From Strigamia acuminata (taxonomy: Eukaryota > Arthropoda > Chilopoda > Geophilomorpha > Linotaeniidae), in NCBI GenBank assembly GCA_949358305.1, contig OX442314.1, positions 35,151,608-35,211,607 of the forward strand: a DNA stretch of 60,000 nucleotides, given 5' to 3'. The notes beneath the pieces were generated by a model, which saw only the letters and a program-made list of their open reading frames with translations, ran no database searches and was not told where the DNA came from. Made by a program: the position numbers and the translations under genes. This document shows positions 26,034-56,505 of the stretch, piece by piece. Numbering within the stretch: position 1 is the stretch's first letter; each line of letters begins with the position of its first letter.

Positions 26034-26406
26034 GGTGTGCAGCGTTGCCAGCGTCTAGAGCTGCCAGCGTTTATATTTTCAGATTTGCTGGAATATTTTT
26101 TTTTTTTGCCAGCTTATCCTGTTTCAGCGTCGTATAATTTTTAATAAAAACGGAATATATTGCATCCAATGCCAGCCTTTTATTTGCCAGCGTTTCTAGC
26201 GCCAGCGTTTTGTGTGCCAGCGTTTTGTGTGCCAGCGTGTTGAATTCCCGCGTTTCCTGCACGTTACGTGCGCGTTACACGTCGCACTTCCCCCAGCTCC
26301 AAGACCAACTAACATCGCTTTCGAACCCCTTAATTACCGATCTCCAAGAACGCTACTCCGAACTAACTGCAACCGGATCCACCAAAAGCCATCTACCGCC
26401 CAAACT
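26034..26406 (+). repeat. Left terminal inverted repeat with GCCAGCG motifs
   Basis: Matches 31971-32329 in inverse orientation along its whole length with few differences (an extra GCCAGCGTTTTGTGT copy here, CGTCTAG for CATCTAG). Its inner ~120 bp encodes the start of the LRR frame. Confidence 0.9.
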
Positions 26407-26465
26407 CTTCATCAGCCCAGGCGCAAAATACCTAAATCTCCGCAAATTCCACCTACCAGTCGATC

Positions 26466-26470
26466 AACTC
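26466..26470. other. 5-bp target duplication (left), AACTC
   Basis: AACTC precedes the 5' LTR and recurs at 31272-31276 directly after the 3' LTR. Confidence 0.92.
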
Positions 26471-26643
26471 TGTGATATTGTGATATTATAGTGTAAATAT
26501 GAGCCACTAGATGGCAGTGTAATCGAGGCGACACCTGGCGCCCGGTGTTACCTTGTATGATTAATAAACCTGAGCGGTACACTTTGTATCATGTCATGCT
26601 ACTGAACAGATCTCCTTTATTATGCCTATTCCACGACACCACA
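26471..26643 (+). repeat. 5' LTR
   Basis: 173 bp, starts TGTG and ends CACA. It contains ATTAATAAACCTGAG, a likely polyadenylation signal. Confidence 0.93.
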
Positions 26644-26662
26644 TTGGCGACGAGGATAAAGA
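26644..26662 (+). promoter_or_regulatory. Putative primer-binding site
   Basis: TTGGCGACGAGGATAAA begins at the LTR edge. TGGCGACG is complementary to a CGTCGCCA tRNA 3' end, which is seen in tRNA-Ser-like primers. The exact tRNA is not determined. Confidence 0.55.
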
Positions 26663-26778
26663 AATAGAACTGAATCCGCTGATATCAACATTGGAAACTG
26701 CCATCAAGGAACATTGATTGTGTGAGTGTGTTGATAAACTGGTTAAACACCTGTATTTAGTGTTATTAGTGCGGAATA

Positions 26779-29700
26779 ATGGCGGGGAATTTGAGTCTGC
26801 CACCAGTCGGACATTTTGTTATTGCTGAGGGGGGCAATTTGGACCAACTCTGGAGGAAGTGGAGTAAGAGTTTCACGTATTTTCTGGTCGCATCTAAAAT
26901 TGTGGATAAAGACCAGAAATTAGCTACATTGCTGCATTTAGCTGGTCCTGCTGTGCAGGAAATATTCGAGACGTTTGAGGAGGACGACACGAAAACCTAC
27001 GATGCGGCAGTACTTGCGTTGGAAGCTTATTTCCACCCCCGGAAAAACCTTCGTTTTGAAAGGCACATATTTAGACAACAGTGCCAAGAAGATAAGGAGT
27101 CAATGGACAGCTACGTAACGCGGTTGAAAAATTTCGCGAAGACGTGCGAGTTTGCAACACTCGAAGAGGATTTGATTGTTGATCAAGTCCTTGAGAAAGG
27201 ACGCGATAAAGGATTGTGGAGACGACTTTTGCGTGAAACAACGGTAACTTTGAAGTCGTTGTTGACCATGGCGCGTTCGGCAGAAGCCAGTGAACAACAC
27301 GCGACCGCAATGGAGCGAGACAGCGTGGAGAAGCCGAAGGAAAGCACCGTGAGTTCGATTAATGAAAATAAACATTTTAAGAGTCGTGGAAACCGAAGGG
27401 GGCGTGGCACGTTCCGGAAGTTCAACTCGAAGCCACACAACGTGGACGACAGGCGAGAAAATAAGACCCAGGCGGCGAAAATGTGTTTCCGGTGCGGCCA
27501 CAATGACCATTTGGCCAGCGAGTGCACGATCGCGAAAAATAAAGAATGCGGGTTTTGCCATAAACTTGGCCATTTTTCAAAAGTTTGTAGGGCGAAAAAT
27601 GCTGACCGAGGACGTGGAAACAAGGACCGTGTGCGATACGTCGGAGTCAACGAATACGAACGTGAACACGACGGAAGTGACAGTGACTATTCGTGGTGCG
27701 TATCCGCAGGGAAGTCGACTAGTGACATTGTAGTACGGATTGAAAATCAAAAAGTAAATGTATTGATTGATTCCGGGTCGACGGTGAATCTGGTCGATCA
27801 GGGGACGTGGAACACGTTGAAAAGTAAGGGAATCAAATTAACTCCAACTAATACACGTTTATTTGCATACGGAGTGAACGAGCCATTGGTCGTAAGCGGA
27901 GAATTTCACGCGGAAGTGGGAACTGTGAAGAAGTCAGTCAACGCGAGGTTTTTGGTCGTCCCATCGGGAAAATTGCCATTATTGGGACGAGCAACGTCGA
28001 AACAACTCGGAATATTAAAATTGGAAGACGAGATAGTGAATGCGGTGGATGACAGCACGCTGTTTGACGAGACAGTCGGAAAACTCCGAGATGACTTAAG
28101 TAGTCGAATTAAAAAGTATAAAGAAGTATTTAATGGGATTGGCAGGTTGAAGGACTACGAACTCGAACTTCATGTCGACCCGTTGGTGAGACCAGTGGCG
28201 CAGATGGTGCGGAGAATACCGTTTCACATTCGCAAACAGGTGGATATGGAAATCGATAATCTACTGAAAGCAGACATCATCGAACCAGTCACCGGTGCCA
28301 CTGAGTGGGTTTCGCCGATGGTTCCGGTGCGAAAACCGGACGGAACAATCAGAATTTGCCTCGACATGCGCGCGGTGAATGAGGCCGTGAAGCGCAACCG
28401 CCACCCATTACCCACGATGGATGAGGTCCTAGACGAAATAGACGGGGCCGAAATGATAACAAAATTAGATTGCAGGTGGGGATACTTGCAAATTCCCTTG
28501 CAAGAAAATTCTAGGAAATATACAGTTTTCGTCACACACCGCGGACTTTTCCAGTATAAAAGACTATTTTTCGGGATCGCGAGTGCTCCAGAGGAGTATC
28601 AACGAATCGTCCAAAACATTTTGGCCGATTGCGAGGGAACGCGTAATAGTCTTGATGACATCGTCGTACATGGTCGGACGACGAAAGAACACGACAAAAG
28701 GCTAGAAAAGGTATTAGAAACTTTAATGCGTAACGGATTAACGTTAAATTTGAAAAAGTGTGCGTTTGGCGTGACGAGATTGACATTCTTGGGCCATATC
28801 ATCTCAAAGAAGGGCATTTCCGTGGCGGAACAAAAGGTTGAAGCGGTTCGAAACGCGACGGCCCCGAAGAACGAAACGGAAATTAGGAGCTTTCTGGGCC
28901 TGGTCAATTACTGCGCCAGATATATACCAAACTTTGCGACCATTGCAGAACCGTTGAGAGTCATGGCGAGAAAGGACGTCGTATTTAGTTGGAAAAAACC
29001 ACAGAACGATGCCTTCAACAAGCTAAAAGAGAGTTTGTGCAGCTCGGGAACGCTCGCCTTCTTCAAGAAGAACGTGGAGACGGAATTGATAGTCGACGCG
29101 TCGCCAGTCGGATTAGGGGCGGTCCTCGTGCAACGGCAAGTCGACGGTTTGAATCAGCCTATCGCATACGCCAGCAGGACGTTATCCGACGTGGAACGCC
29201 GATACTCCACCACGGAAAAAGAAGCTCTCGCAGTCGTTTGGGGCTGCGAGAGGTTCCGACTCTACTTGATTGGGATGCCATTCAAACTAATAACCGACCA
29301 CAAGGCATTGGAAATTATTTACTCGGTGAAGTCGAAGCCCAGCGCCCGGATCGAGAGGTGGGTGTTGAGGCTGCAACCGTACGAATTTACGATCAAACAT
29401 CGGCCAGGAAGTTCAAACATCGCGGATGCTCTCTCGAGACTACTTCCAGTTGGAGAAGGGAAGACGGTGATTGGAAAAACGGAAAAATACGTCCATTTCA
29501 TCCTTGAAAACGCCATCCCGAAAGCGATGACTTTGAAACACGTAGAAGTTGCTTCCAGGGCCGACGGTCAGATCTGCACAATCGCCACGAGTTTACGGGA
29601 CGCGACGAAGTTTACGCAAGAATTACAAAAATTCGAGCCGATTCGAAATGAATTAATGATGGCGGGAGACGTATTACTTCGCGGCACGAGAATCGTGATG

Positions 29701-30882
29701 CCGACGGCGTTGAGGAAAAAGGTCATTGAATTGGCACACAGGGGTCACCAGGGCGTCGTACGTACGAAACAACGCCTACGAGAGAAGGTCTGGTGGCCGG
29801 GCCTTGACCACGACGTCGAGCACGCCGTACGACAGTGCAGGGCTTGTCAATTTAACAGCAGCGCGACAGAGAAGCCGGAGCCGATAAAAAGTACCATTTT
29901 ACCAAAAGGGCCGTGGCGGGACTTAGCGCTGGACATCTGCGGGCCATTTAACGATGGACATTCGATCATTGTGCTGGTGGACTATTATTCCAGGTGGCCG
30001 GAAGCACGAATTTTAAAATCGACGAAAGCAGAAAAAATAATAAGTTGGCTACGCGGAACTTTCGAGTGTTGGGGACTTCCCGAGACGTTGACGTCCGACA
30101 ACGGGCCGCAGTTCGTTTCGGAGCAGTTTCGTGACTTTATGGACGAATGTGGAACGCAACACAGAAGGGTTACACCGTATTGGCCTCAGGCCAACGGTCA
30201 AGTCGAAAGATTAAACAAATCATTTGTAAAGGCGTTTCGTTCGGCGAAAATCGAAGGGGAAGATTGGAAGAAAACACTCGGAACTTTTCTAGAAGCGTAC
30301 AGAAGCACTCCACATAGGACTACAGGAGTGTCACCATACGAACTGATGACCACAAGAAAAATGAGGAATAAGATCCCACAGATAATGAAAGAACAACGAG
30401 GAAAACTACATCGGATCGTGAAGAATAAAGATGCGGAGGAAAAAGCGAAATCAAAACAATTTGCAGATCACAGCCGGAAAAGTAAAGAAAGTGAAATTCG
30501 GGTTGGAGATAGAGTTTTGGTTGCGAAATCAAGATTTCACAAGTTGGATTTGGCTTACGAACACGATCTAATGACAGTTAGCCGGAAAGACGGAAATTGC
30601 GTTTCGTTGAAAACGTCTGATGGACGAATTATTAAGAGAAATGTAACGAAAATAAGACGTTACATTCCACTGGACGAGGATATCGGGATTCGAGGAGAAG
30701 ACAACATCCAAATAGAGGCGGGACCCGAAGGACCACGAGCAGATACCCATTTGCAGCCTGGGTCACCACCGAGAGAGGCGTTACCAAGGGGCCGACCGTT
30801 GAATCGCCCAGCACCTGGACCATTACGGAGGTCCAAGCGGAACAGAAGACCTCCAGATTATTTGAAAATGTATGTGAGATGA
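26779..30882 (+). CDS. gypsy Gag-Pol polyprotein
   Basis: A single frame of 1367 aa with gag and pol fused without a frameshift. In order: capsid-like gag (1-~200), basic linker, two CCHC zinc knuckles (C236 and C257 starts, both C-x2-C-x4-H-x4-C), aspartic protease (D331 in IDSGS), reverse transcriptase (~480-680, active site SLDDI with Asp 626/627 where most gypsy elements have YxDD), RNase H (VDASPVGLGAV...TDHKALEI), integrase with HHCC zinc finger (H987 onward) and a DDE triad at D1052, D1107 and E1143 (spacing 54 and 35), then a basic C-terminal tail. All catalytic residues that I could locate are present. Products would copy and insert the element. The architecture resembles K02A2.6-type animal gypsy families. 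A related broken fragment lies at 59.3 kb. Confidence 0.95.
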   Translation: MAGNLSLPPVGHFVIAEGGNLDQLWRKWSKSFTYFLVASKIVDKDQKLATLLHLAGPAVQEIFETFEEDDTKTYDAAVLALEAYFHPRKNLRFERHIFRQQCQEDKESMDSYVTRLKNFAKTCEFATLEEDLIVDQVLEKGRDKGLWRRLLRETTVTLKSLLTMARSAEASEQHATAMERDSVEKPKESTVSSINENKHFKSRGNRRGRGTFRKFNSKPHNVDDRRENKTQAAKMCFRCGHNDHLASECTIAKNKECGFCHKLGHFSKVCRAKNADRGRGNKDRVRYVGVNEYEREHDGSDSDYSWCVSAGKSTSDIVVRIENQKVNVLIDSGSTVNLVDQGTWNTLKSKGIKLTPTNTRLFAYGVNEPLVVSGEFHAEVGTVKKSVNARFLVVPSGKLPLLGRATSKQLGILKLEDEIVNAVDDSTLFDETVGKLRDDLSSRIKKYKEVFNGIGRLKDYELELHVDPLVRPVAQMVRRIPFHIRKQVDMEIDNLLKADIIEPVTGATEWVSPMVPVRKPDGTIRICLDMRAVNEAVKRNRHPLPTMDEVLDEIDGAEMITKLDCRWGYLQIPLQENSRKYTVFVTHRGLFQYKRLFFGIASAPEEYQRIVQNILADCEGTRNSLDDIVVHGRTTKEHDKRLEKVLETLMRNGLTLNLKKCAFGVTRLTFLGHIISKKGISVAEQKVEAVRNATAPKNETEIRSFLGLVNYCARYIPNFATIAEPLRVMARKDVVFSWKKPQNDAFNKLKESLCSSGTLAFFKKNVETELIVDASPVGLGAVLVQRQVDGLNQPIAYASRTLSDVERRYSTTEKEALAVVWGCERFRLYLIGMPFKLITDHKALEIIYSVKSKPSARIERWVLRLQPYEFTIKHRPGSSNIADALSRLLPVGEGKTVIGKTEKYVHFILENAIPKAMTLKHVEVASRADGQICTIATSLRDATKFTQELQKFEPIRNELMMAGDVLLRGTRIVMPTALRKKVIELAHRGHQGVVRTKQRLREKVWWPGLDHDVEHAVRQCRACQFNSSATEKPEPIKSTILPKGPWRDLALDICGPFNDGHSIIVLVDYYSRWPEARILKSTKAEKIISWLRGTFECWGLPETLTSDNGPQFVSEQFRDFMDECGTQHRRVTPYWPQANGQVERLNKSFVKAFRSAKIEGEDWKKTLGTFLEAYRSTPHRTTGVSPYELMTTRKMRNKIPQIMKEQRGKLHRIVKNKDAEEKAKSKQFADHSRKSKESEIRVGDRVLVAKSRFHKLDLAYEHDLMTVSRKDGNCVSLKTSDGRIIKRNVTKIRRYIPLDEDIGIRGEDNIQIEAGPEGPRADTHLQPGSPPREALPRGRPLNRPAPGPLRRSKRNRRPPDYLKMYVR

Positions 30883-31082
30883 GCAAAATTTCAAATGGAT
30901 GTTGTTGCCAAATTAACTTTATTAATAAGTAACAAATGTGTTTGAAAAAAAAAGAGAAAGGGAAAGAGTTCAGGCCTGGACCAAAAAACATTGTTAAGGA
31001 ATAATACATATACATTGTAAGTTTTAATCATTTAATTTAATTTATTTATATTATTATGTTTGTACAAAATGTTGTTATAATT

Positions 31083-31098
31083 TGAAAAAAAAGAGTGA
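31083..31098 (+). promoter_or_regulatory. Polypurine tract
   Basis: GAAAAAAAAGAGTGA directly precedes the 3' LTR, the expected position of the plus-strand primer. Confidence 0.7.
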
Positions 31099-31271
31099 TG
31101 TGATATTGTGATATTATAGTGTAAATATGAGCCACTAGATGGCAGTGTAATCGAGGCGACACCTGGCGCCCGGTGTTACCTTGTATGATTAATAAACCTG
31201 AGCGGTACACTTTGTATCATGTCATGCTACTGAACAGATCTCCTTTATTATGCCTATTCCACGACACCACA
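31099..31271 (+). repeat. 3' LTR
   Basis: Identical by eye to 26471-26643. Confidence 0.93.
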
Positions 31272-31970
31272 AACTCGTCGACCAAATAGGCCGAATCTGT
31301 ACGAACCTAACCCAGGTAAAGTGGAAATTCTCTTCGAACGTTTCACCCCGATATTTAACAGCATTGTTAAGAAACCTGCCGCAAATCCGATCCCTCGACT
31401 TCAGCAACAATCGTTCCGACGACGGCGTTTTGGCCGCGATCGGCATCCACTGTCCCCGACTGCAATATCTGAAGCTAAGTCATTGCAAGAACGTCACCGA
31501 CGACGGCATCCAACTGCTGTGCGGCAAAAGCTCCGCCGCGCCGGGCGGCTCGAAGATCGAACGTCTGGACATATGGGACACGAGCGTCACGCCACATGGA
31601 GCGTTATTTGCTCTGCAAAGTCTCCTTTCCTTGAAGGAATTGGAATACGACTTGTGGGAAGACTTGTTTCAACTCCTAAAAGCCGAATACACTCACACGG
31701 AGCCAACTTACGCCTTGCAGCAATTGTTTTTGACTTTTTGGAACGAAAGCGACTAATTACCAAACCAGTTGAATTCACCTGAACGCTGAAATCAAAAAAT
31801 TCTGGCAAAATAAAATAATACTCCGTAATATTTTTAATTATTATTTTTAATTGTTTAATTTAATACACGCTAAGTAAAATTGACGCTGGCAACAATCAAA
31901 TAATACGAGTAATAATAATAAACTGACGCTACATCACGAGAAGCTGGCGAATTTACACGCTGGCACAACC

Positions 31971-32329
31971 AGTTTGGGCGGTAGATGGCTTTTGGTGGAT
32001 CCGGTTGCAGTTAGTTCGGAGTAGCGTTCTTGGAGATCGGTAATTAAGGGGTTCGAAAGCGATGTTAGTTGGTCTTGGAGCTGGGGGAAGTGCGACGTGT
32101 AACGCGCACGTAACGTGCAGGAAACGCGGGAATTCAACACGCTGGCACACAAAACGCTGGCGCTAGAAACGCTGGTAAATAAAAGGCTGGCATTGGATGC
32201 AATATATTCCGTTTTTATTAAAAATTATACGACGCTGAAACAGGATAAGCTGGCAAAAAAAAAAAAATATTCAAGCAAATCTGAAAATATAAACGCTGGC
32301 AGCTCTAGATGCTGGCAACGCTGCGCACC
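31971..32329 (-). repeat. Right terminal inverted repeat with CGCTGGC motifs
   Basis: Inverse copy of 26034-26406. Subterminal CGCTGGC motifs extend further inward to ~31880, where they have no counterpart next to the left arm. Confidence 0.9.
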
Positions 32330-40199: not shown

Positions 40200-40208
40200 G
40201 TAAATCCC
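40200..40208. other. 9-bp target duplication (left), GTAAATCCC
   Basis: GTAAATCCC is followed immediately by GGGTCACTAC. The same nine bases follow the right inverted repeat at 56497-56505. Confidence 0.93.
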
Positions 40209-42161
40209 GGGTCACTACAAAACATGGGGTACACCCCAATTGGGGTACCCCATGGGGTATACCCCAAAGTCCTGGAATGTGGAAAAGATAAATAAAAATT
40301 ACTAAAATAATTGAAATAAAAATTACAAAAAAAAAATTTAAATTACATACAAAAATATGACATTACATGTTAAAAATCACAAAAATCAATTTTTTGACTG
40401 ACAAATCACAGAAATTTATTTTTTGACTCACAAATCACAAAAATAAATTTTTTGACTCAAAATCTAAATGATTTTATTCAACAATAAATCTTTAAAAAAC
40501 ATTACAATTCCATATAAAAAAGCGATAAAATAGAGAAAAATCGATAAAAATTGGTAAAAATTGATAAAAATCGGTAAAAATCGATAAAAATGAAGAAAAA
40601 TCGATAAAAATCGGTAAAAATTGCTAAAAATCGGTAAAAATCGATAAAAATCGGTAAAAATCGATAAAAATCGGTAAAAATCGATAAAAATCGATAAAAA
40701 TCGATAAAAATCGGTAAAAATCGGTAAAAATCGATAAAAATCGGTAAAAATCGATAAAAACGATTTTTATCGATTTTTACCGTTTTTTACCGATTTCTAT
40801 CGATTTTTACCAATTTTTATCGATTTTTACCAATTTTTACCGATTTTTACCGATTTTTATCGATTTTTACCGATTTTTACCGTTTTTTCTCCATTTTTCT
40901 CGATTTTTACCGATTTTTCTCGATTTTTACCGATTTTTATATCGTTTCTTCTCCATTTTTATCGATTTTTTATACCGAATTGTAGTGTTTTTTAAAGATT
41001 TATTGTTGAATAAAATCATAGATTTTCAGTCAAAAAATTTATTTTTGTGATTTGTGAGTCAAAAAATAAATTTCTGTGATTTGTCAATCAAAAAATTGAT
41101 TTTTGGGATTTTTAACATGTAATGTCATATTTTTGTATGTAATTTAAATTTTTTTTTTGTAATTTTACAATTGTACCCTTCATATAGCTTGAAACCCAGA
41201 CACAAGTGATCAATAATAATTATCCCCATGGCCAATCACATCGCTCCATGCATCTTGGGCAATAGTATGGCGCCAAATTCGATTTTTGGACTGTTTAATC
41301 CGATGCGTGGAATTGTAGGACAAGAAAATTTGTTTTTACACGAAAAAGCATGTATTTCTCACCAATAAAATTTATTGCCACCTAAAAACTTTGTATTTAC
41401 ACCAAACTAATTTGTTTCCTTCTGAAATAATTTGTTTTTTCCAGAAATAATTTGTTTTTTCCAGAAATAATTTGTTTTTTCCAGAAATAATTTGTTTTTT
41501 CCCGAAATAATTTGTTTTTCCCGAAATAATTTGTTTTTGCCGAAATGATTTGTTTTTTCAAAACAATTTTTTTTCTGAAATAATTTTTATTTACACATTC
41601 TGTATTGATATTTCTTCTCATTGTGTACCCACAGCACTCTAGGTTTGCAGTCAACATCATTTTCTTTAATTAGAAAAGATTAATGTTGATGCACGTTTTA
41701 TGAGCAACTTTTATGTATGAAATAGCTTCCGTGTAGGCAAAATAATTACAAAGCCAAATTATTAGTGCTCAGAGCCTGCTCCAGGTCTAACAGCATCCAG
41801 TGCGACTTTTCTTAGTTTGATCCACATAAATACTCATGTTCTACTTATAACCTTGTCTTCGTTGCTTACCTAGAACTCTGAAACTTTTGAATATTGTCTC
41901 GTACATATTGTCGTGTCCATGTGTGTCTCCAAGTGGGGATGGACTAAACGTCATGTGTCAGGTCTGACACCTGGCACCCGACGCCTGACACATGACGTTT
42001 AGTTTTGGTGAAAAAGGAGATTCAGACGTCTGACGCCTGACAGTTAGTCCCAAATAAACAGGCGCCTGACACCTGATGCCTCACACCTGACGTTTAGTCC
42101 ATCCCCTCGAAGGGAAGTATTCTTTGTGTCCCGATCTGTCACGTCTAGGGTGTCCCAATAC
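40209..42161 (+). repeat. Array unit 1 (1953 bp, type A)
   Basis: Palindrome 40320-41167 with axis near 40762. The arms run from TTACAAAAAAAAAATTTAAA inward to (GATAAAAATCGGTAAAAATC)n. The 20-bp repeat AAATAATTTGTTTTTTCCAG is at ~41405-41580. The nested fold-back is at 41935-42106. Type A markers: ATCTAAATGATTTTATT in the left arm and ATTGTACCC after the palindrome. Same length as unit 3. Confidence 0.9.
41935..42106. mobile_element. Fold-back element nested in each unit's spacer (unit 1 copy)
   Basis: 172 bp. Starts GGGGATGGACTAAACGTCAT and ends GACGTTTAGTCCATCCCC. The interior is built of TGACACCTG / CAGGTGTCA phrases, so the left third alone (ACTAAACGTC...GACGTTTAGT) already folds. The same ends bound the unrelated interior at 8656-9256. 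It recurs in units 2-7 at the same position, so it was there before the array expanded. Confidence 0.85.
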
Positions 42162-44283
42162 GGGTCACTACAAAACATGGGGTACACCCCAATTGGGGTA
42201 CCCCATGGGGTATACCCCAAAGTCCTGGAATGTGGAAAAGATAAATAAAAATTACTAAAATAATTGAAATAAAAATTACAAAAAAAAAATTTAAATTACA
42301 TACAAAAATATGACATTACATGTTAAAAATCACAAAAATCAATTTTTTGACTGACAAATCACAGAAATTTATTTTTTGACTCACAAATCACAAAAATAAA
42401 TTTTTTTGATTCAAAATCTATGATTTTATTCAACAATAAATCTTTAAAAAACATTACAATTCCATATAAAAAAGCGATAAAATAGAGAAAAATCGATAAA
42501 AATTGGTAAAAATTGATAAAAATCGGTAAAAATCGATAAAAATGAAGAAAAATCGATAAAAATCGGTAAAAATGGAGAAAAAACGATAGAAATCGGTAAA
42601 AATCGATAAAAATCGGTAAAAATTGCTAAAAATCGGTAAAAATCGATAAAAATCGGTAAAAATCGATAAAAATCGGTAAAAATCGAGAAAAATGGAGAAA
42701 AAACGGTAAAAATCGGTAAAAATCGATAAAAATCGATAAAAATTGGTAAAAATCGATAAAAATCGGTAAAAATCGGTAAAAATCGATAAAAATCGGTAAA
42801 AATCGATAAAAACGATTTTTATCGATTTTTACCGTTTTTTACCGATTTCTATCGATTTTTACCAATTTTTATCGATTTTTACCGATTTTTACCGATTTTT
42901 ATCGATTTTTACCGATTTTTACCGTTTTTTCTCCATTTTTCTCGATTTTTACCGATTTTTCTCGATTTTTACCGATTTTTCTCGATTTTTACCGATTTTT
43001 ATATCGTTTCTTCTCCATTTTTATCGATTTTTTATACCGAATTGTAGTGTTTTTTAAAGGTTTATTGTTGAATAAAATCATAGATTTTCAGTCAAAAAAT
43101 TTATTTTTGTGATTTGTGAGTCAAAAAATAAATTTCTGTGATTTGTCAATCAAAAAATTGATTTTTGGGATTTTTAACATGTAATGTCATACTTTTGTAT
43201 GTAATTTAAATTTTTTTTTTGTAATTTTACAATTTTACCCTTCATATAGCTTGAAACCCAGACACAAGTGATCAATAATAATTATCCCCATGACCAATCA
43301 CATCGCTCCATGCATCTTGGGCAATAGTATGGCGCCAAATTCGATTTTTGGACTGTTTAATCCGATGCGTGGAATTGTAGGACAAGAAAATTTGTTTTTA
43401 CACGAAAAAGCATGTATTTCTCACCAATAAAATTTATTGCCACCTAAAAACTTTGTATTTACACCAAACTAATTTGTTTCCTTCTGAAATAATTTGTTTT
43501 TTCCAGAAATAATTTGTTTTTTCCAGAAATAATTTGTTTTTTCCAGAAATAATTTGTTTTTTCCAGAAATAATTTGTTTTTTCCAGAAATAATTTGTTTT
43601 TTCCAGAAATAATTTGTTTTTTCCCGAAATAATTTGTTTTTCCCGAAATAATTTGTTTTTGCCAAAATGATTTGTTTTTTCAAAACAATTTTTTTTCTGA
43701 AATAATTTTTATTTACACATTCTGTATTGATATTTCTTCTCATTGTGTACCCACAGCACTCTAGGTTTGCAGTCAACATCATTTTCTTTAATTAGAAAAG
43801 ATTAATGTTGATGCACGTTTTATGAGCAACTTTTATGTATGAAATAGCTTCCGTGTAGGCAAAATAATTACAAAGCCAAATTATTAGTGCTCAGAGCCTG
43901 CTCCAGGTCTAACAGCATCCAGTGCGACTTTTCTTAGTTTGATCCACATAAATACTCATGTTCTACTTATAACCTTGTCTTCGTTGCTTACCTAGAACTC
44001 TGAAACTTTTGAATATTGTCTCGTACATATTGTCGTGTCCATGTGTGTCTCCAAGTGGGGATGGACTAAACGTCATGTGTCAGGTCTGACACCTGGCACC
44101 CGACGCCTGACACATGACGTTTAGTTTTGGTGAAAAAGGAGATTCAGACGTCTGACGCCTGACAGTTAGTCCCAAATAAACAGGCGCCTGACACCTGATG
44201 CCTCACACCTGACGTTTAGTCCATCCCCTCGAAGGGAAGTATTCTTTGTGTCCCGATCTGTCACGTCTAGGGTGTCCCAATAC
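42162..44283 (+). repeat. Array unit 2 (2122 bp, type B)
   Basis: Axis near 42813. The left arm reads ATCTATGATTTTATT and includes GGAGAAAAAACGATAG variants absent from unit 1. ATTTTACCC and CCATGACCAATC follow the palindrome. Three more 20-bp repeats than unit 1. Confidence 0.9.
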
Positions 44284-46236
44284 GGGTCACTACAAAACAT
44301 GGGGTACACCCCAATTGGGGTACCCCATGGGGTATACCCCAAAGTCCTGGAATGTGGAAAAGATAAATAAAAATTACTAAAATAATTGAAATAAAAATTA
44401 CAAAAAAAAAATTTAAATTACATACAAAAATATGACATTACATGTTAAAAATCACAAAAATCAATTTTTTGACTGACAAATCACAGAAATTTATTTTTTG
44501 ACTCACAAATCACAAAAATAAATTTTTTGACTCAAAATCTAAATGATTTTATTCAACAATAAATCTTTAAAAAACATTACAATTCCATATAAAAAAGCGA
44601 TAAAATAGAGAAAAATCGATAAAAATTGGTAAAAATTGATAAAAATCGGTAAAAATCGATAAAAATGAAGAAAAATCGATAAAAATCGGTAAAAATTGCT
44701 AAAAATCGGTAAAAATCGATAAAAATCGGTAAAAATCGATAAAAATCGGTAAAAATCGATAAAAATCGATAAAAATCGATAAAAATCGGTAAAAATCGGT
44801 AAAAATCGATAAAAATCGGTAAAAATCGATAAAAACGATTTTTATCGATTTTTACCGTTTTTTACCGATTTCTATCGATTTTTACCAATTTTTATCGATT
44901 TTTACCATTTTTTACCGATTTTTACCGATTTTTATCGATTTTTACCGATTTTTACCGTTTTTTCTCCATTTTTCTCGATTTTTACCGATTTTTCTCGATT
45001 TTTACCGATTTTTATATCGTTTCTTCTCCATTTTTATCGATTTTTTATACCGAATTGTAGTGTTTTTTAAAGATTTATTGTTGAATAAAATCATAGATTT
45101 TCAGTCAAAAAATTTATTTTTGTGATTTGTGAGTCAAAAAATAAATTTCTGTGATTTGTCAATCAAAAAATTGATTTTTGGGATTTTTAACATGTAATGT
45201 CATATTTTTGTATGTAATTTAAATTTTTTTTTTGTAATTTTACAATTGTACCCTTCATATAGCTTGAAACCCAGACACAAGTGATCAATAATAATTATCC
45301 CCATGGCCAATCACATCGCTCCATGCATCTTGGGCAATAGTATGGCGCCAAATTCGATTTTTGGACTGTTTAATCCGATGCGTGGAATTGTAGGACAAGA
45401 AAATTTGTTTTTACACGAAAAAGCATGTATTTCTCACCAATAAAATTTATTGCCACCTAAAAACTTTGTATTTACACCAAACTAATTTGTTTCCTTCTGA
45501 AATAATTTGTTTTTTCCAGAAATAATTTGTTTTTTCCAGAAATAATTTGTTTTTTCCAGAAATAATTTGTTTTTTCCCGAAATAATTTGTTTTTCCCGAA
45601 ATAATTTGTTTTTGCCGAAATGATTTGTTTTTTCAAAACAATTTTTTTTCTGAAATAATTTTTATTTACACATTCTGTATTGATATTTCTTCTCATTGTG
45701 TACCCACAGCACTCTAGGTTTGCAGTCAACATCATTTTCTTTAATTAGAAAAGATTAATGTTGATGCACGTTTTATGAGCAACTTTTATGTATGAAATAG
45801 CTTCCGTGTAGGCAAAATAATTACAAAGCCAAATTATTAGTGCTCAGAGCCTGCTCCAGGTCTAACAGCATCCAGTGCGACTTTTCTTAGTTTGATCCAC
45901 ATAAATACTCATGTTCTACTTATAACCTTGTCTTCGTTGCTTACCTAGAACTCTGAAACTTTTGAATATTGTCTCGTACATATTGTCGTGTCCATGTGTG
46001 TCTCCAAGTGGGGATGGACTAAACGTCATGTGTCAGGTCTGACACCTGGCACCCGACGCCTGACACATGACGTTTAGTTTTGGTGAAAAAGGAGATTCAG
46101 ACGTCTGACGCCTGACAGTTAGTCCCAAATAAACAGGCGCCTGACACCTGATGCCTCACACCTGACGTTTAGTCCATCCCCTCGAAGGGAAGTATTCTTT
46201 GTGTCCCGATCTGTCACGTCTTGGGTGTCCCAATAC
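44284..46236 (+). repeat. Array unit 3 (1953 bp, type A)
   Basis: Near-identical to unit 1 in length and markers (axis near 44836), but its terminal spacer reads CACGTCTTGGG where unit 1 has CACGTCTAGGG. Confidence 0.9.
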
Positions 46237-48437
46237 GGGTCACTACAAAACATGGGGTACACCCCAATTGGGGTACCCCATGGGGTATACCCCAAAGTCC
46301 TGGAATGTGGAAAAGATAAATAAAAATTACTAAAATAATTGAAATAAAAATTACAAAAAAAAAATTTAAATTACATACAAAAATATGACATTACATGTTA
46401 AAAATCACAAAAATCAATTTTTTGACTGACAAATCACAGAAATTTATTTTTTGACTCACAAATCACAAAAATAAATTTTTTGACTCAAAATCTATGATTT
46501 TATTCAACAATAAATCTTTAAAAAACATTACAATTCCATATAAAAAAGCGATAAAATAGAGAAAAATCGATAAAAATTGGTAAAAATTGATAAAAATCGG
46601 TAAAAATCGATAAAAATGAAGAAAAATCGATAAAAATCGGTAAAAATGGAGAAAAAACGATAGAAATCGGTAAAAATCGATAAAAATCGGTAAAAATTGC
46701 TAAAAATCGGTAAAAATCGATAAAAATCGGTAAAAATCGTTAAAAATCGGTAAAAATCGAGAAAAATGGAGAAAAAACGGTAAAAATCGGTAAAAATCGA
46801 TAAAAATCGATAAAAATTGGTAAAAATCGATAAAAATCGGTAAAAATCGGTAAAAATCGATAAAAATCGGTAAAAATCGATAAAAACGATTTTTATCGAT
46901 TTTTACCGTTTTTTACCGATTTCTATCGATTTTTATCGATTTTTACCGATTTTTAGCAATTTTTACCGATTTTTATCGATTTTTACCGATTTCTATCGTT
47001 TTTTCTCCATTTTTACCGATTTTTATCGATTTTTCTTCATTTTTATCGATTTTTACCGATTTTTATCAATTTTTACCAATTTTTATCGATTTTTACCGTT
47101 TTTTCTCCATTTTTCTCGATTTTTACCGATTTTTCTCGATTTTTACCGATTTTTCTCGATTTTTACCGATTTTTATATCGTTTCTTCTCCATTTTTATCG
47201 ATTTTTTATACCGAATTGTAGTGTTTTTTAAAGATTTATTGTTGAATAAAATCATAGATTTTCAATCAAAAAATTTATTTTTGTGATTTGTGAGTCAAAA
47301 AATAAATTTCTGTGATTTGTCAATCAAAAAATTGATTTTTGGGATTTTTAACATGTAATGTCATACTTTTGTATGTAATTTAAATTTTTTTTTTGTAATT
47401 TTACAATTTTACCCTTCATATAGCTTGAAACCCAGACACAAGTGATCAATAATAATTATCCCCATGACCAATCACATCGCTCCATGCATCTTGGGCAATA
47501 GTATGGCGCCAAATTCGATTTTTGGACTGTTTAATCCGATGCGTGGAATTGTAGGACAAGAAAATTTGTTTTTACACGAAAAAGCATGTATTTCTCACCA
47601 ATAAAATTTATTGCCACCTAAAAACTTTGTATTTACACCAAACTAATTTGTTTCCTTCTGAAATAATTTGTTTTTTCCAGAAATAATTTGTTTTTTCCAG
47701 AAATAATTTGTTTTTTCCAGAAATAATTTGGTTTTTCCAGAAATAATTTGTTTTTTCCAGAAATAATTTGTTTTTTCCCGAAATAATTTGTTTTTCCCGA
47801 AATAATTTGTTTTTGCCAAAATGATTTGTTTTTTCAAAACAATTTTTTTTCTGAAATAATTTTTATTTACACATTCTGTATTGATATTTCTTCTCATTGT
47901 GTACCCACAGCACTCTAGGTTTGCAGTCAACATCATTTTCTTTAATTAGAAAAGATTAATGTTGATGCACGTTTTATGAGCAACTTTTATGTATGAAATA
48001 GCTTCCGTGTAGGCAAAATAATTACAAAGCCAAATTATTAGTGCTCAGAGCCTGCTCCAGGTCTAACAGCATCCAGTGCGACTTTTCTTAGTTTGATCCA
48101 CATAAATACTCATGTTCTACTTATAACCTTGTCTTCGTTGCTTACCTAGAACTCTGAAACTTTTGAATATTGTCTCGTACATATTGTCGTGTCCATGTGT
48201 GTCTCCAAGTGGGGATGGACTAAACGTCATGTGTCAGGTCTGACACCTGGCACCCGACGCCTGACACATGACGTTTAGTTTTGGTGAAAAGGGAGATTCA
48301 GACGTCTGACGCCTGACAGTTAGTCCCAAATAAACAGGCGCCTGACACCTGATGCCTCACACCTGACGTTTAGTCCATCCCCTCGAAGGGAAGTATTCTT
48401 TGTGTCCCGATCTGTCACGTCTAGGGTGTCCCAATAC
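46237..48437 (+). repeat. Array unit 4 (2201 bp, type B)
   Basis: Axis near 46888. Type B left arm, and the longer right arm now also contains the mirrored CGTTTTTTCTCCATTTTTAC segments, so the palindrome is more complete than in unit 2. One 20-bp repeat has TTTGGTTTTTCC. Confidence 0.9.
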
Positions 48438-50410
48438 GGGTCACTACAAAACATGGGGTACACCCCAATTGGGGTACCCCATGGGGTATACCCCAAAGTC
48501 CTGGAATGTGGAAAAGATAAATAAAAATTACTAAAATAATTGAAATAAAAATTACAAAAAAAAAATTTAAATTACATACAAAAATATGACATTACATGTT
48601 AAAAATCACAAAAATCAATTTTTTGACTGACAAATCACAGAAATTTATTTTTTGACTCACAAATCACAAAAATAAATTTTTTGACTCAAAATCTAAATGA
48701 TTTTATTCAACAATAAATCTTTAAAAAACATTACAATTCCATATAAAAAAGCGATAAAATAGAGAAAAATCGATAAAAATTGGTAAAAATTGATAAAAAT
48801 CGGTAAAAATCGATAAAAATGAAGAAAAATCGATAAAAATCGGTAAAAATTGCTAAAAATCGGTAAAAATCGATAAAAATCGGTAAAAATCGATAAAAAT
48901 CGGTAAAAATCGATAAAAATCGGTAAAAATCGATAAAAATCGATAAAAATCGATAAAAATCGGTAAAAATCGGTAAAAATCGATAAAAATCGGTAAAAAT
49001 CGATAAAAACGATTTTTATCGATTTTTACCGTTTTTTACCGATTTCTATCGATTTTTACCAATTTTTATCGATTTTTACCAATTTTTACCGATTTTTACC
49101 GATTTTTATCGATTTTTACCGATTTTTACCGTTTTTTCTCCATTTTTCTCGATTTTTACCGATTTTTCTCGATTTTTACCGATTTTTATATCGTTTCTTC
49201 TCCATTTTTATCGATTTTTTATACCGAATTGTAGTGTTTTTTAAAGATTTATTGTTGAATAAAATCATAGATTTTCAGTCAAAAAATTTATTTTTGTGAT
49301 TTGTGAGTCAAAAAATAAATTTCTGTGATTTGTCAATCAAAAAATTGATTTTTGGGATTTTTAACATGTAATGTCATACTTTTGTATGTAATTTAAATTT
49401 TTTTTTTGTAATTTTACAATTTTACCCTTCATATAGCTTGAAACCCAGACACAAGTGATCAATAATAATTATCCCCATGACCAATCACATCGCTCCATGC
49501 ATCTTGGGCAATAGTATGGCGCCAAATTCGATTTTTGGACTGTTTAATCCGATGCGTGGAATTGTAGGACAAGAAAATTTGTTTTTACACGAAAAAGCAT
49601 GTATTTCTCACCAATAAAATTTATTGCCACCTAAAAACTTTGTATTTACACCAAACTAATTTGTTTCCTTCTGAAATAATTTGTTTTTTCCAGAAATAAT
49701 TTGTTTTTTCCAGAAATAATTTGTTTTTTCCAGAAATAATTTGTTTTTTCCCGAAATAATTTGTTTTTCCCGAAATAATTTGTTTTTGCCGAAATGATTT
49801 GTTTTTTCAAAACAATTTTTTTTCTGAAATAATTTTTATTTACACATTCTGTATTGATATTTCTTCTCATTGTGTACCCACAGCACTCTAGGTTTGCAGT
49901 CAACATCATTTTCTTTAATTAGAAAAGATTAATGTTGATGCACGTTTTATGAGCAACTTTTATGTATGAAATAGCTTCCGTGTAGGCAAAATAATTACAA
50001 AGCCAAATTATTAGTGCTCAGAGCCTGCTCCAGGTCTAACAGCATCCAGTGCGACTTTTCTTAGTTTGATCCACATAAATACTCATGTTCTACTTATAAC
50101 CTTGTCTTCGTTGCTTACCTAGAACTCTGAAACTTTTGAATATTGTCTCGTACATATTGTCGTGTCCATGTGTGTCTCCAAGTGGGGATGGACTAAACGT
50201 CATGTGTCAGGTCTGACACCTGGCACCCGACGCCTGACACATGACGTTTAGTTTTGGTGAAAAAGGAGATTCAGACGTCTGACGCCTGACAGTTAGTCCC
50301 AAATAAACAGGCGCCTGACACCTGATGCCTCACACCTGACGTTTAGTCCATCCCCTCGAAGGGAAGTATTCTTTGTGTCCCGATCTGTCACGTCTAGGGT
50401 GTCCCAATAC
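48438..50410 (+). repeat. Array unit 5 (1973 bp, mosaic)
   Basis: Type A palindrome (axis near 49010) with one additional 20-bp arm repeat, but type B markers after it (ATTTTACCC, CCATGACCAATC). This mixture suggests gene conversion or unequal crossing-over. Confidence 0.88.
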
Positions 50411-52403
50411 GGGTCACTACAAAACATGGGGTACACCCCAATTGGGGTACCCCATGGGGTATACCCCAAAGTCCTGGAATGTGGAAAAGATAAATAAAAA
50501 TTACTAAAATAATTGAAATAAAAATTACAAAAAAAAAATTTAAATTACATACAAAAATATGACATTACATGTTAAAAATCACAAAAATCAATTTTTTGAC
50601 TGACAAATCACAGAAATTTATTTTTTGACTCACAAATCACAAAAATAAATTTTTTGACTCAAAATCTAAATGATTTTATTCAACAATAAATCTTTAAAAA
50701 ACATTACAATTCCATATAAAAAAGCGATAAAATAGAGAAAAATCGATAAAAATTGGTAAAAATTGATAAAAATCGGTAAAAATCGATAAAAATGAAGAAA
50801 AATCGATAAAAATCGGTAAAAATTGCTAAAAATCGGTAAAAATCGATAAAAATCGGTAAAAATCGATAAAAATCGGTAAAAATCGATAAAAATCGGTAAA
50901 AATCGATAAAAATCGATAAAAATCGATAAAAATCGGTAAAAATCGGTAAAAATCGATAAAAATCGGTAAAAATCGATAAAAACGATTTTTATCGATTTTT
51001 ACCGTTTTTTACCGATTTCTATCGATTTTTACCAATTTTTATCGATTTTTACCATTTTTTACCGATTTTTACCGATTTTTATCGATTTTTACCGATTTTT
51101 ACCGTTTTTTCTCCATTTTTCTCGATTTTTACCGATTTTTCTCGATTTTTACCGATTTTTATATCGTTTCTTCTCCATTTTTATCGATTTTTTATACCGA
51201 ATTGTAGTGTTTTTTAAAGATTTATTGTTGAATAAAATCATAGATTTTCAGTCAAAAAATTTATTTTTGTGATTTGTGAGTCAAAAAATAAATTTCTGTG
51301 ATTTGTCAATCAAAAAATTGATTTTTGGGATTTTTAACATGTAATGTCATATTTTTGTATGTAATTTAAATTTTTTTTTTGTAATTTTACAATTGTACCC
51401 TTCATATAGCTTGAAACCCAGACACAAGTGATCAATAATAATTATCCCCATGGCCAATCACATCGCTCCATGCATCTTGGGCAATAGTATGGCGCCAAAT
51501 TCGATTTTTGGACTGTTTAATCCGATGCGTGGAATTGTAGGACAAGAAAATTTGTTTTTACACGAAAAAGCATGTATTTCTCACCAATAAAATTTATTGC
51601 CACCTAAAAACTTTGTATTTACACCAAACTAATTTGTTTCCTTCTGAAATAATTTGTTTTTTCCAGAAATAATTTGTTTTTTCCAGAAATAATTTGTTTT
51701 TTCCAGAAATAATTTGTTTTTTCCAGAAATAATTTGTTTTTTCCCGAAATAATTTGTTTTTCCCGAAATAATTTGTTTTTGCCGAAATGATTTGTTTTTT
51801 CAAAACAATTTTTTTTCTGAAATAATTTTTATTTACACATTCTGTATTGATATTTCTTCTCATTGTGTACCCACAGCACTCTAGGTTTGCAGTCAACATC
51901 ATTTTCTTTAATTAGAAAAGATTAATGTTGATGCACGTTTTATGAGCAACTTTTATGTATGAAATAGCTTCCGTGTAGGCAAAATAATTACAAAGCCAAA
52001 TTATTAGTGCTCAGAGCCTGCTCCAGGTCTAACAGCATCCAGTGCGACTTTTCTTAGTTTGATCCACATAAATACTCATGTTCTACTTATAACCTTGTCT
52101 TCGTTGCTTACCTAGAACTCTGAAACTTTTGAATATTGTCTCGTACATATTGTCGTGTCCATGTGTGTCTCCAAGTGGGGATGGACTAAACGTCATGTGT
52201 CAGGTCTGACACCTGGCACCCGACGCCTGACACATGACGTTTAGTTTTGGTGAAAAAGGAGATTCAGACGTCTGACGCCTGACAGTTAGTCCCAAATAAA
52301 CAGGCGCCTGACACCTGATGCCTCACACCTGACGTTTAGTCCATCCCCTCGAAGGGAAGTATTCTTTGTGTCCCGATCTGTCACGTCTTGGGTGTCCCAA
52401 TAC
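50411..52403 (+). repeat. Array unit 6 (1993 bp, type A)
   Basis: Axis near 50983. Shares CACGTCTTGGG at its end with unit 3 and CCATTTTTTACC in the right arm with unit 3. Confidence 0.88.
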
Positions 52404-54866
52404 GGGTCACTACAAAACATGGGGTACACCCCAATTGGGGTACCCCATGGGGTATACCCCAAAGTCCTGGAATGTGGAAAAGATAAATAAAAATTACTAA
52501 AATAATTGAAATAAAAATTACAAAAAAAAAATTTAAATTACATACAAAAATATGACATTACATGTTAAAAATCACAAAAATCAATTTTTTGACTGACAAA
52601 TCACAGAAATTTATTTTTTGACTCACAAATCACAAAAATAAATTTTTTGACTCAAAATCTATGATTTTATTCAACAATAAATCTTTAAAAAACATTACAA
52701 TTCCATATAAAAAAGCGATAAAATAGAGAAAAATCGATAAAAATTGGTAAAAATTGATAAAAATCGGTAAAAATCGATAAAAATGAAGAAAAATCGATAA
52801 AAATCGGTAAAAATGGAGAAAAAACGATAGAAATCGGTAAAAATCGATAAAAATCGGTAAAAATTGCTAAAAATCGGTAAAAATCGATAAAAATTGGTAA
52901 AAATCGATAAAAATCGGTAAAAATCGAGAAAAATGGAGAAAAAACGGTAAAAATCGGTAAAAATCGATAAAAATCGGTAAAAATCGAGAAAAATGGAGAA
53001 AAAACGGTAAAAATCGGTAAAAATCGATAAAAATCGATAAAAATTGGTAAAAATCGATAAAAATCGGTAAAAATCGGTAAAAATCGATAAAAATCGGTAA
53101 AAATCGATAAAAACGATTTTTATCGATTTTTACCGTTTTTTACCGATTTCTATCGATTTTTATCGATTTTTACCGATTTTTAGCAATTTTTACCGATTTT
53201 TATCGATTTTTACCGATTTCTATCGTTTTTTCTCCATTTTTACCGATTTTTATCGATTTTTCTTCATTTTTATCGATTTTTACCGATTTTTATCAATTTT
53301 TACCAATTTTTATCGATTTTTACCGTTTTTTCTCCATTTTTATCGATTTTTACCGATTTTTCTCGATTTTTACCGATTTTTCTCGATTTTTACCGATTTT
53401 TATATCGTTTCTTCTCCATTTTTATCGATTTTTTATACCGAATTGTAGTGTTTTTTAAAGATTTATTGTTGAATAAAATCATAGATTTTCAATCAAAAAA
53501 TTTATTTTTGGGATTTTTAACATGTAATGTCATACTTTTGTATGTAATTTAAATTTTTTTTTTGTAATTTTACAATTTTACCCTTCATATAGCTTGAAAC
53601 CCAGACACAAGTGATCAATAATAATTATCCCCATGGCCAATCACATCGCTCCATGCATCTTGGGCAATAGTATGGCGCCAAATTCGATTTTTGGACTGTT
53701 TAATCCGATGCGTGGAATTGTAGGACAAGAAAATTTGTTTTTACACGAAAAAGCATGTATTTCTCACCAATAAAATTTATTGCCACCTAAAAACTTTGTA
53801 TTTACACCAAACTAATTTGTTTTCTTCTGAAATAATTTGTTTTTTCCAGAAATAATTTGTTTTTTCCAGAAATAATTTGTTTTTTCCAGAAATAATTTGT
53901 TTTTTCCAGAAATAATTTGTTTTTTCCAGAAATAATTTGTTTTTTCCAGAAATAATTTGTTTTTTCCAGAAATAATTTGTTTTTTCCCGAAATAATTTGT
54001 TTTTTCCAGAAATAATTTGTTTTTTCCCGAAATAATTTGTTTTTTCCAGAAATAATTTGTTTTTTCCAGAAATAATTTGTTTTTTCCAGAAATAATTTGT
54101 TTTTTCCAGAAATAATTTGTTTTTTCCAGAAATAATTTGTTTTTTCCAGAAATAATTTGTTTTTTCCAGAAATAATTTGTTTTTTCCAGAAATAATTTGT
54201 TTTTTCCCGAAATAATTTGTTTTTCCCGAAATAATTTGTTTTTGCCGAAATGATTTGTTTTTTCAAAACAATTTTTTTTCTGAAATAATTTTTATTTACA
54301 CATTCTGTATTGATATTTCTTCTCATTGTGTACCCACAGCACTCTAGGTTTGCAGTCAACATCATTTTCTTTAATTAGAAAAGATTAATGTTGATGCACG
54401 TTTTATGAGCAACTTTTATGTATGAAATAGCTTCCGTGTAGGCAAAATAATTACAAAGCCAAATTATTAGTGCTCAGAGCCTGCTCCAGGTCTAACAGCA
54501 TCCAGTGCGACTTTTCTTAGTTTGATCCACATAAATACTCATGTTCTACTTATAACCTTGTCTTCGTTGCTTACCTAGAACTCTGAAACTTTTGAATATT
54601 GTCTCGTACATATTGTCGTGTTCATGTGTGTCTCCAAGTGGGGATGGACTAAACGTCATGTTTCAGGTCTGACACCTGGCACCCGACGCCTGACACATGA
54701 CGTTTAGTTTTGGTGAAAAGGGAGATTCAGACGTCTGACGCCTGACAGTTAGTCCCAAATAAACAGGCGCCTGACACCTGATGCCTCACACCTGACGTTT
54801 AGTCCATCCCCTCGAAGGGAAGTATTCTTTGTGTCCCGATCTGTCACGTCTTGGGTGTCCCAATAC
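52404..54866 (+). repeat. Array unit 7 (2463 bp, type B, expanded)
   Basis: Axis near 53113. Type B left arm with a duplicated GAGAAAAATGGAGAAAAAAC block. The right arm lacks ~67 bp (the GTGATTTGTGAGTCAAAAAA stretch). The 20-bp repeat is expanded to roughly 20 copies (53820-54240), which accounts for much of the added length. Confidence 0.9.
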
Positions 54867-56496
54867 GGGTCACTACAAAACATGGGGTACACCCCAATTG
54901 GGGTACCCCATGGGGTATACCCCAAAGTCCTGGAATGTGGAAAAGATAAATAAAAATTACTAAAATAATTGAAATAAAAATTACAAAAAAAAAATTTAAA
55001 TTACATACAAAAATATGACATTACATGTTAAAAATCACAAAAATCAATTTTTTGACTGACAAATCACAGAAATTTATTTTTTGACTCACAAATCACAAAA
55101 ATAAATTTTTTGACTCAAAATCTAAATGATTTTATTCAACAATAAATCTTTAAAAAACATTACAATTCCATATAAAAAAGCGATAAAATAGAGAAAAATC
55201 GATAAAAATTGGTAAAAATTGATAAAAATCGGTAAAAATCGATAAAAATGAAGAAAAATCGATAAAAATCGGTAAAAATGGAGAAAAAACGATAGAAATC
55301 GGTAAAAATCGATAAAAATCGGTAAAAATTGCTAAAAATCGGTAAAAATCGATAAAAATCGGTAAAAATCGATAAAAATCGGTAAAAATCGATAAAAATC
55401 GGTAAAAATCGATAAAAATCGATAAAAATCGATAAAAATCGGTAAAAATCGGTAAAAATCGATAAAAATCGGTAAAAATCGATAAAAACGATTTTTATCG
55501 ATTTTTACCGTTTTTTACCGATTTCTATCGATTTTTACCAATTTTTATCGATTTTTACCGATTTTTACCGATTTTTATCGATTTTTACCGATTTTTACCG
55601 TTTTTTCTCCATTTTTCTAGATTTTTACCGATTTTTCTCGATTTTTACCGATTTTTATATCGTTTCTTCTCCATTTTTATCGATTTTTTATACCGAATTG
55701 TAGTGTTTTTTAAAGATTTATTGTTGAATAAAATCATAGATTTTCAGTCAAAAAATTTATTTTTGTGATTTGTGAGTCAAAAAATAAATTTCTGTGATTT
55801 GTCAATCAAAAAATTGATTTTTGGGATTTTTAACATGTAATGTCATACTTTTGTATGTAATTTAAATTTTTTTTTTGTAATTTTACAATTTTACCCTTCA
55901 TATAGCTTGAAACCCAGACACAAGTGATCAATAATAATTATCCCCATGGCCAATCACATCGCTCCATGCATCTTGGGCAATAGTATGGCGCCAAATTCGA
56001 TTTTTGGACTGTTTAATCCGATGCGTGGAATTGTAGGACAAGAAAATTTGTTTTTACACGAAAAAGCATGTATTTCTCACCAATAAAATTTATTGCCACC
56101 TAAAAACTTTGTATTTACACCAAACTAATTTGTTTCCTTCTGAAATAATTTGTTTTTTTCCAGAAATAATTTGTTTTTTCCCGCAATAATTTGTTTTTCC
56201 CGAAATAATTTCTTTTTTCCGAAATAATTTCTTTTTCCCGAAATAATTTGTTTTTTCCCGAAATAATTTGTTTTTTCCCGAAATAATTTGTTTTTTCCCG
56301 AAATAATTTGTTTTTCCCGAAATGATTTGTTTTTTCAAAACAATTTTTTTTCTGAAATAATTTTTATTTACACATTCTGTATTGATATTTCTTCTCATTG
56401 TGTACCCACAGCACTCTATTGGAGATCTGCCTGCGGTCTGGGGTATACCCCATGGGGTACCCCAATTGGGATGTACCCTGTGTTTTGTAGTGACCC
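54867..56496 (+). repeat. Array unit 8 (1630 bp, terminal, carries right inverted repeat)
   Basis: Type A-like palindrome (axis near 55490) with one B-type GGAGAAAAAACGATAG block. The 20-bp repeats are diverged (AATTTC, CCCGAAATAATTTCTTTTT). It departs from the others after CACAGCACTCTA (56418): the 520-bp spacer is absent, replaced by ~20 bp and then the right inverted repeat 56439-56496. Confidence 0.9.
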
Positions 56497-56505
56497 GTAA
56501 ATCCC
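56497..56505. other. 9-bp target duplication (right), GTAAATCCC
   Basis: Exact match to 40200-40208, directly after GTAGTGACCC. Confidence 0.93.

Follow-up and report, generated by a model that had tools for sequence, protein, structure and literature searches.

Structure of the array on contig C1

The window, a 60,000-bp stretch of the Strigamia acuminata genome, lies on contig C1, and coordinates given without a contig prefix are window positions. It contains, at 40209-56496, a tandem array of eight units in which copies of a foldback element alternate with a common spacer (Table 1). The array is with high probability a composite transposon, in which tandem foldback copies were joined by captured host DNA and moved as one unit.

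The first-pass annotation of this DNA had described the array as being bounded like a single transposon, and its observations on the boundaries were reproduced. The outer 58-bp inverted repeats agree at 55 of 58 positions, and the exact 9-bp duplication GTAAATCCC is found twice in the window, at the two edges of the array, and nowhere else. The 16-base end sequence GGGTCACTACAAAACA occurs eight times on the plus strand and once on the minus strand: the left repeat opens all eight units and the right repeat closes unit 8 only, as had been reported. The annotation had also pointed out that the internal junctions lack the 9-mer. GTAAATCCC is indeed absent from the interior, because the junctions carry CCCAATAC, a mutated remnant of the duplication CTCGATACG of a related array on contig C10, and not a duplication of the C1 target.

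All eight units have a common core, in which two arms made of 10-bp repeats face each other and a 20-bp minisatellite is also present. In units 1-7, this core stops at CACAGCACTCT and is followed by a 521-bp spacer that directly abuts the next left end. In unit 8, the sequence continues past CACAGCACTCT for another 79 bp up to the right end, and it is these 79 bp that the spacer replaces in units 1-7.

The arrayed element is a non-coding foldback element. Its longest stop-free stretches are read from the repeats, and the left 982 bp of unit 1, folded as single-stranded DNA, reach -375.8 kcal/mol, whereas 20 shuffled sequences average -102.6 (z -42.6). Both hallmarks of foldback elements are present, namely long hairpin-forming inverted repeats composed of short tandem repeats and a target duplication in the 8-10 bp range. 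In five dispersed elements of the family (L001, L050, L055, L057 and L058), the unique part that matches unit 8 from about position 1026 is inverted with respect to the left arm; the arrayed core is therefore an inverted-middle variant.

Table 1. Coordinates of the array features in the window
Feature	Position	Strand	Basis or comment
Target duplication, left copy, 9 bp GTAAATCCC	40200..40208	.	sequence match
Terminal inverted repeat, outer left, 58 bp	40209..40266	+	sequence match
16-base end GGGTCACTACAAAACA, eight copies	40209, 42162, 44284, 46237, 48438, 50411, 52404, 54867	+	first base of each copy
Unit 1: left end, foldback core, 521-bp spacer	40209..42161	+	1953 bp
Long hairpin (foldback), unit 1, arms of 10-bp repeats	40318..41166	+	facing arms also in other units
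20-bp minisatellite, right part of unit 1	41408..41586	+
Captured host spacer, unit 1	41641..42161	+
Unit 2	42162..44283	+	2122 bp
Unit 3	44284..46236	+	1953 bp
Unit 4	46237..48437	+	2201 bp
Unit 5	48438..50410	+	1973 bp
Unit 6	50411..52403	+	1993 bp
Unit 7	52404..54866	+	2463 bp; long 20-bp minisatellite (~24 copies)
Same spacer, units 2-7	43763-44283, 45716-46236, 47917-48437, 49890-50410, 51883-52403, 54346-54866
Unit 8, terminal: core and right end, no spacer	54867..56496	+	1630 bp
Terminal inverted repeat, outer right, 58 bp	56439..56496	-	55/58 identical to left one
16-base end GGGTCACTACAAAACA, one copy	56481..56496	-
Target duplication, right copy, 9 bp GTAAATCCC	56497..56505	.	sequence match

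Three bounded arrays in one genome

The search covered a single assembly with 157 contigs and a total of 237.5 Mb. This assembly contains 128 exact copies of the 16-base end, 70 in forward and 58 in reverse orientation, and among the matches listed, which extend to contig C8, at least 16 simple facing pairs are less than 5 kb apart, besides loci with extra ends. For the spacer, the best 40 of 82 candidates were scored, and the copy counts are lower bounds. At least 36 full-length copies are 99-100% identical (7 on C1, 15 on C3 and 14 on C10); one further C3 copy is split by an insertion, a copy at 89% directly adjoins the C10 array on its outside, and shorter, weaker matches were also seen, some of them on C6. 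Among the scored candidates, the full spacer is present only in three arrays, on C1, C3 and C10, and in the diverged outer left flank of the C10 array.

The C3 array (C3:12290412-12343678) comprises 17 units, with a left end first, a right end last and TCCTCGCCG on both sides. One of its spacers is interrupted by a later insertion of about 19 kb (C3:12322741-12341919, L042-L044), which contains, as judged by eye, long gag- and pol-like open frames. The C10 array runs on the minus strand from 6803003 down to 6772006. Of its left ends, 14 point in the direction of the array and one is inverted; a right end closes the far edge, and CTCGATACG flanks the array on either side. At its right-hand end (C10:6772006-6775295, L045 and L046), both a spacer and a left end are inverted, and the last unit looks as if it had been rearranged at its hairpins.

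The three arrays share the same outer ends and are flanked by three different perfect 9-bp duplications, for which a chance match is expected about once in 262,144 at equal base use. Arrays lacking the end repeats, which the first-pass annotation had named as contrary evidence, did not appear, since both other large arrays, on C3 and C10, have them. They resemble satellites in forming long head-to-tail arrays (8, 17 and 14 units); they do not reach satellite abundance, because just 37 spacer copies were found, all in the three arrays.

A perfect 9-bp duplication was also found at eight independent other family loci that were examined (L057 and L058 counted once, the C5 locus included). There are two exceptions: the duplication at the C37 locus described below matches at 7 of 9 positions, and L054 (C3:35396805-35398197) has none, its flanks being reverse complements of each other, so that the element and its flanks form a palindrome. 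L003 (C1:2972153-2972228) is a 76-bp element that contains little but the two end repeats and is flanked by a perfect duplication, AGTTGTGAC. L057 and L058, at 44.05 and 44.10 Mb on C1, lie in a stretch rich in the foldback family and both carry CGATTTAGG, which points to a segmental duplication.

A likely donor of the spacer on contig C10

On its outer left side, the C10 array is flanked by sequence that differs from the array spacer by 21 substitutions over 502 aligned bases and by indels of 15, 12, 7 and 7 bp. This flank ends with the C10 duplication CTCGATACG, which is repeated on the far side of the array, while the array spacers end in a variant of CTCGATACG with two substitutions and without the last G. 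The 35 unbroken internal spacers vary at 11 sites. Because the full spacer, outside the three bounded arrays, was found only as the diverged outer flank on C10, C10:6.80 Mb is the likely birthplace of the array. A closer source of the spacer, since lost, could conceivably have taken this role instead of C10.

The origin of the spacer also bears on the second explanation offered by the first-pass annotation, that a single monomer was inserted at C1 and then expanded in place. Such an expansion would leave an outer duplication and outer ends that look alike, but the spacers inside the array correspond to the C10 flank and share 99-100% identity with those of the C3 and C10 arrays, which makes this explanation very improbable. 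The same match suggests that the element most likely carried at least two units already when it arrived at C1.

Probable transposition of a multi-unit element

The last units of the C1, C3 and C10 arrays have a common minisatellite type with the tokens K, E, M, D and N, of which K, M and N occur in none of the 34 typed internal units (36 in total; C3_09 and C3_13 were unparsed). The right-hand terminal unit therefore travelled too. This observation also concerns the possibility that an extrachromosomal circle of units composed of left end, core and spacer was derived from C10, amplified by rolling-circle replication and integrated. Head-to-tail arrays are expected from such circles, and rolling-circle routes to tandem arrays are discussed in two reviews (PMC9659126, PMC12628747). 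However, the right end would be missing from a circle of internal units, whereas all three arrays are closed by the same type of terminal unit and flanked by a 9-bp duplication, which makes a circular intermediate improbable.

Tandem arrays of Helitrons are not known to have target duplications or inverted-repeat ends. A Helitron-type rolling circle was considered and rejected, since inverted-repeat ends and 9-bp duplications are present in the arrays.

Elements could also have been inserted, twice or serially, into each other's target duplications, and tandem dimers have been reported to form by double insertion (PMC12628747). Double insertion leaves whole elements separated by the target duplication, whereas units 1-7 have no right end and no internal copy of the target 9-mer is present. 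An assembly artefact fits poorly with arrays on three contigs that differ in flanks, duplications and unit variants; double insertion and artefact, taken together, are the least credible of the explanations considered.

Sequences resembling the sites before insertion were found for both daughter arrays. The joined flanks of the C3 site have four uninterrupted paralogous matches nearby (94, 94, 87 and 82%), and direct reading of one of them showed unbroken sequence through the site and only one 9-mer, which agrees at 7 of 9 positions. The C1 site has three weaker uninterrupted matches (79% and 78% over query positions 176-292, and 70% over 145-313).

How many units moved was approached through variants of the units. 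A 2-bp indel and two linked sites in the middle vary within both C1 and C10. The minisatellite ends F and G are present in both the C1 and the C10 array and differ at a CpG site, where the change could be recurrent, and one arm type is common to C1 units 2, 4 and 7 and C3 unit 1. The units that moved seem to have been of at least two kinds. When unit C1_07 is set aside, the mean number of differences is 3.33 within C1, 3.15 within C3 and 3.55 within C10, compared with 4.38 (C1-C10), 4.80 (C1-C3) and 5.76 (C3-C10) between arrays, and the arrays are differentiated (permutation p 0.017 for C1-C10, 0.003 for C1-C3 and 0.0005 for C3-C10). With C1_07 kept, the value within C1 is 6.14 versus 5.74 and 6.05 between arrays. 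These distances are misleading because C1_07 holds an odd stretch, which was probably converted; without this unit, the C1 units are closer to each other. Unit order shows no correspondence between the arrays, and local turnover is visible.

These data bear on the first explanation of the first-pass annotation, the transposition of an amplified array as a whole. In its full form, many units (16-34 kb) would have moved together and the array would have grown little afterwards. The central idea, a tandem composite that moves as one transposon, is retained, whereas the evidence, given the unit order and the turnover, does not extend to the movement of all eight units. The variants common to the arrays (the 2-bp indel with its linked sites, the F/G ends and the arm type) and the large size of all three arrays, with 8 (C1), 17 (C3) and 14 (C10) units, speak for the movement of whole arrays. 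Against it stand the differentiation of the arrays and the missing correspondence in unit order, and a dimer of unlike units combined with unequal exchange could give the shared variants, except F/G at the CpG site. Transfer of a fully amplified array is possible, but we consider it rather unlikely. The movement of at least three units is favoured; on account of the unit-variant results, including the differentiation, the claim made here for the composite is restricted to two or more moved units.

Flank capture at other loci

Structures of the same kind were detected elsewhere in the genome. C3:15912838-15916845 has two left ends, one right end and the outer duplication TGAGGTACG. At its inner junction lie 224 bp that match, apart from a single mismatch, the left flank of an element at C5:4338798; they include the C5 donor duplication CGTTCATTC, which is present on both sides at C5. 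At C4:10574708-10579124, two left ends are found and 352 bp of left flank are repeated without a mismatch, with a 6-bp microhomology, GATTTT, at the join. The mirror image was read at its ends at C37:11549-23704, where one left end is accompanied by four right ends, each followed by the same 187 bp.

Four loci thus show flank capture (C10, C5-derived, C4 and C37), and two of these, C10 and C5, appear to have given rise to composites that moved elsewhere. C4 is a fresh duplication still in place and C37 a mirror-image case in place. As in Pack-TIR elements, DNA that does not belong to a transposable element lies within the element ends, the composites have their own duplication, and parents are present at C10 and C5.

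Several observations weigh against the movement of a C10-derived composite, or limit it. Divergence between the C10 flank and the spacers amounts to 4.2%, besides indels, while the spacers differ little between the arrays; therefore, either the duplication predates the spread or the arrays were homogenised beforehand. The empty sites for C1 and C3 are paralogous and not allelic, and with one assembly and no reads the unit numbers could be wrong. C5 now shows a single forward end among the matches listed, and the dimer was not seen at that donor. A transposase was also sought: of 118 MULE (PF10551) and 34 FLYWCH matches in the genome, none was found by eye between the listed end pairs.

In a pair of ends 9.65 kb apart on C1, the middle 2.4 kb contain a frame that, by eye, is reverse-transcriptase-like.

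Proposed origin of the composite

The composite transposon proposed here could have arisen in four steps. The starting point was a foldback element at C10:6.80 Mb, flanked by the duplication CTCGATACG, as the sequence there shows. In a second step, a point 79 bp inside the right end would have been joined to a point 521 bp outside the left end, with the product flank-L-core/flank-L-core-R (L and R, left and right end; the slash marks the join), a structure that the arrays display. The route may have been faulty repair or replication, probably at the long hairpin; replication stalled at the hairpin, or gap repair, together with end joining would yield such a duplication. A tandem duplication that extends from outside one end to the inside of the element would leave the first left and the last right end intact. 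In a third step, these two ends would have been paired, and the oligomer would have moved to C1 and C3, generating a fresh 9-bp duplication each time. The ends, the duplications and the paralogous empty sites are consistent with this step; the transposase would have acted in trans, and the direction of travel would have been from C10. Finally, unequal exchange and conversion may have changed the unit number in each array.

Whether these events amount to a recurrent engine, in which a hairpin-induced tandem duplication captures the flank and a block of at least three units is then transposed as one composite, is a matter on which we see the chances as evenly balanced.

Mutator-like elements may have provided the mobilising enzyme, an analogy drawn from the duplication length only, as 9 bp fits these elements (PMC6446971). 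Rehavkus and Phantom are Mutator-like groups with duplications of 9 bp (8-10 bp for Phantom); the minisatellite precedes the 3' inverted repeat in Rehavkus and follows the transposase frame in aphid Phantom (PMC6446971). The element described here resembles them in its 9-bp duplication and its minisatellite, here of 20-bp repeats. In contrast, both groups are defined by their transposase, with a PHD-finger in Rehavkus, and none was found for this element in the search described above.

Relation to known systems

A close parallel is provided by Pack-TIRs and the FoSTeST model, with Ssk-FB4 in Drosophila, a foldback element with 9-10 bp duplications that captures host DNA; the resulting chimera goes on to sites whose duplications are distinct, and one copy is tandemly duplicated (PMC8277862). 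Both systems thus share a foldback element, host-DNA capture and a chimera that moves with new duplications. Ssk-FB4, however, captures a gene from elsewhere (PMC8277862), whereas in the arrays described here the element's own flank is captured, the element end is repeated and up to 17 units are reached. Tetris of Drosophila virilis is likewise a foldback element with 8-10 bp duplications and a link to satellite-like arrays, which originate from repeats inside the terminal inverted repeats (TIR-220; PMC4079207). Different from Tetris, the element and its captured flank together make up the unit here, and the borders of the array are marked by element ends and a target duplication.

KolobokP is another DNA transposon that forms tandem multimers between target duplications; it has TTAA duplications, long terminal direct repeats and a coding interior, and its units share one element copy between them without a host spacer (PMC9587614). 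The duplications at all three arrays described here are 9 bp long and not TTAA. In tandem Helitron arrays, many copies of one end (5') are likewise combined with a single other end (3'); they are explained by rolling-circle replication (PMC12628747), whereas the present arrays have inverted-repeat ends and 9-bp duplications. Tandem copies of DNA transposons are also found in hobo dimers of Drosophila, which arise by double insertion (PMC12628747), and in coral CMITE arrays, where similar sequence is likewise present between the copies (PMC2872659). Unlike these two, as described in the available text, the arrays here are duplication-bounded composites with a traced donor flank. In maize macrotransposons and alternative transposition, ends of different copies jointly move the intervening DNA, as proposed here; these are plant hAT systems, for which the available material describes no formation of repeat arrays (PMC4270019, PMC9910405).

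Taken singly, duplication-bounded multimers (KolobokP), arrays rich in one end (Helitrons), foldback satellites (Tetris) and host-DNA capture (Ssk-FB4) are already known. In a limited, mostly title-level literature search, no publication title describing a duplication-bounded tandem array with donor-flank spacers turned up. Judged by this search, the new part is the combination of donor, daughters and empty sites in one genome.

The birth of tandem arrays from transposons and their spread over chromosomes have so far mostly been inferred from endpoints. Here, stages seem to exist side by side in one genome: a fresh duplication (C4), a mirror-image array in place (C37), a moved dimer (C5) and, at C10, an older donor whose two daughter arrays include one with paralogous empty sites at 82-94% identity. 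This outlines a route by which arrays of tandem repeats can originate and spread. If the engine is recurrent, arrays would be born mobile and would be seeded, already tandem, onto other chromosomes. The captured flank acts as a postmark that names the donor, and the process can therefore be counted elsewhere by searching for repeated inner ends joined to a foreign flank.

Other mobile and repeat DNA in the window

The window is rich in mobile elements. At 26034-32329, a frame of 1370 amino acids contains reverse transcriptase, RNase H and integrase domains and is accompanied by 173-bp direct repeats and by flanking inverted repeats of up to 222 bp, which hold 15-bp TGCCAGCGTTT minisatellites. 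The retroelement sits inside, or is transported by, another element with minisatellite ends. Pieces of reverse transcriptase are present at 19116-22643 (minus strand), a copia-type gag frame at 5720-6541 (plus strand) and a frame with a FLYWCH domain at 2905-3531 (minus strand). A separate tandem array, with about 17.7 copies of a 30-bp AT-rich unit, is located at 14805-15341.
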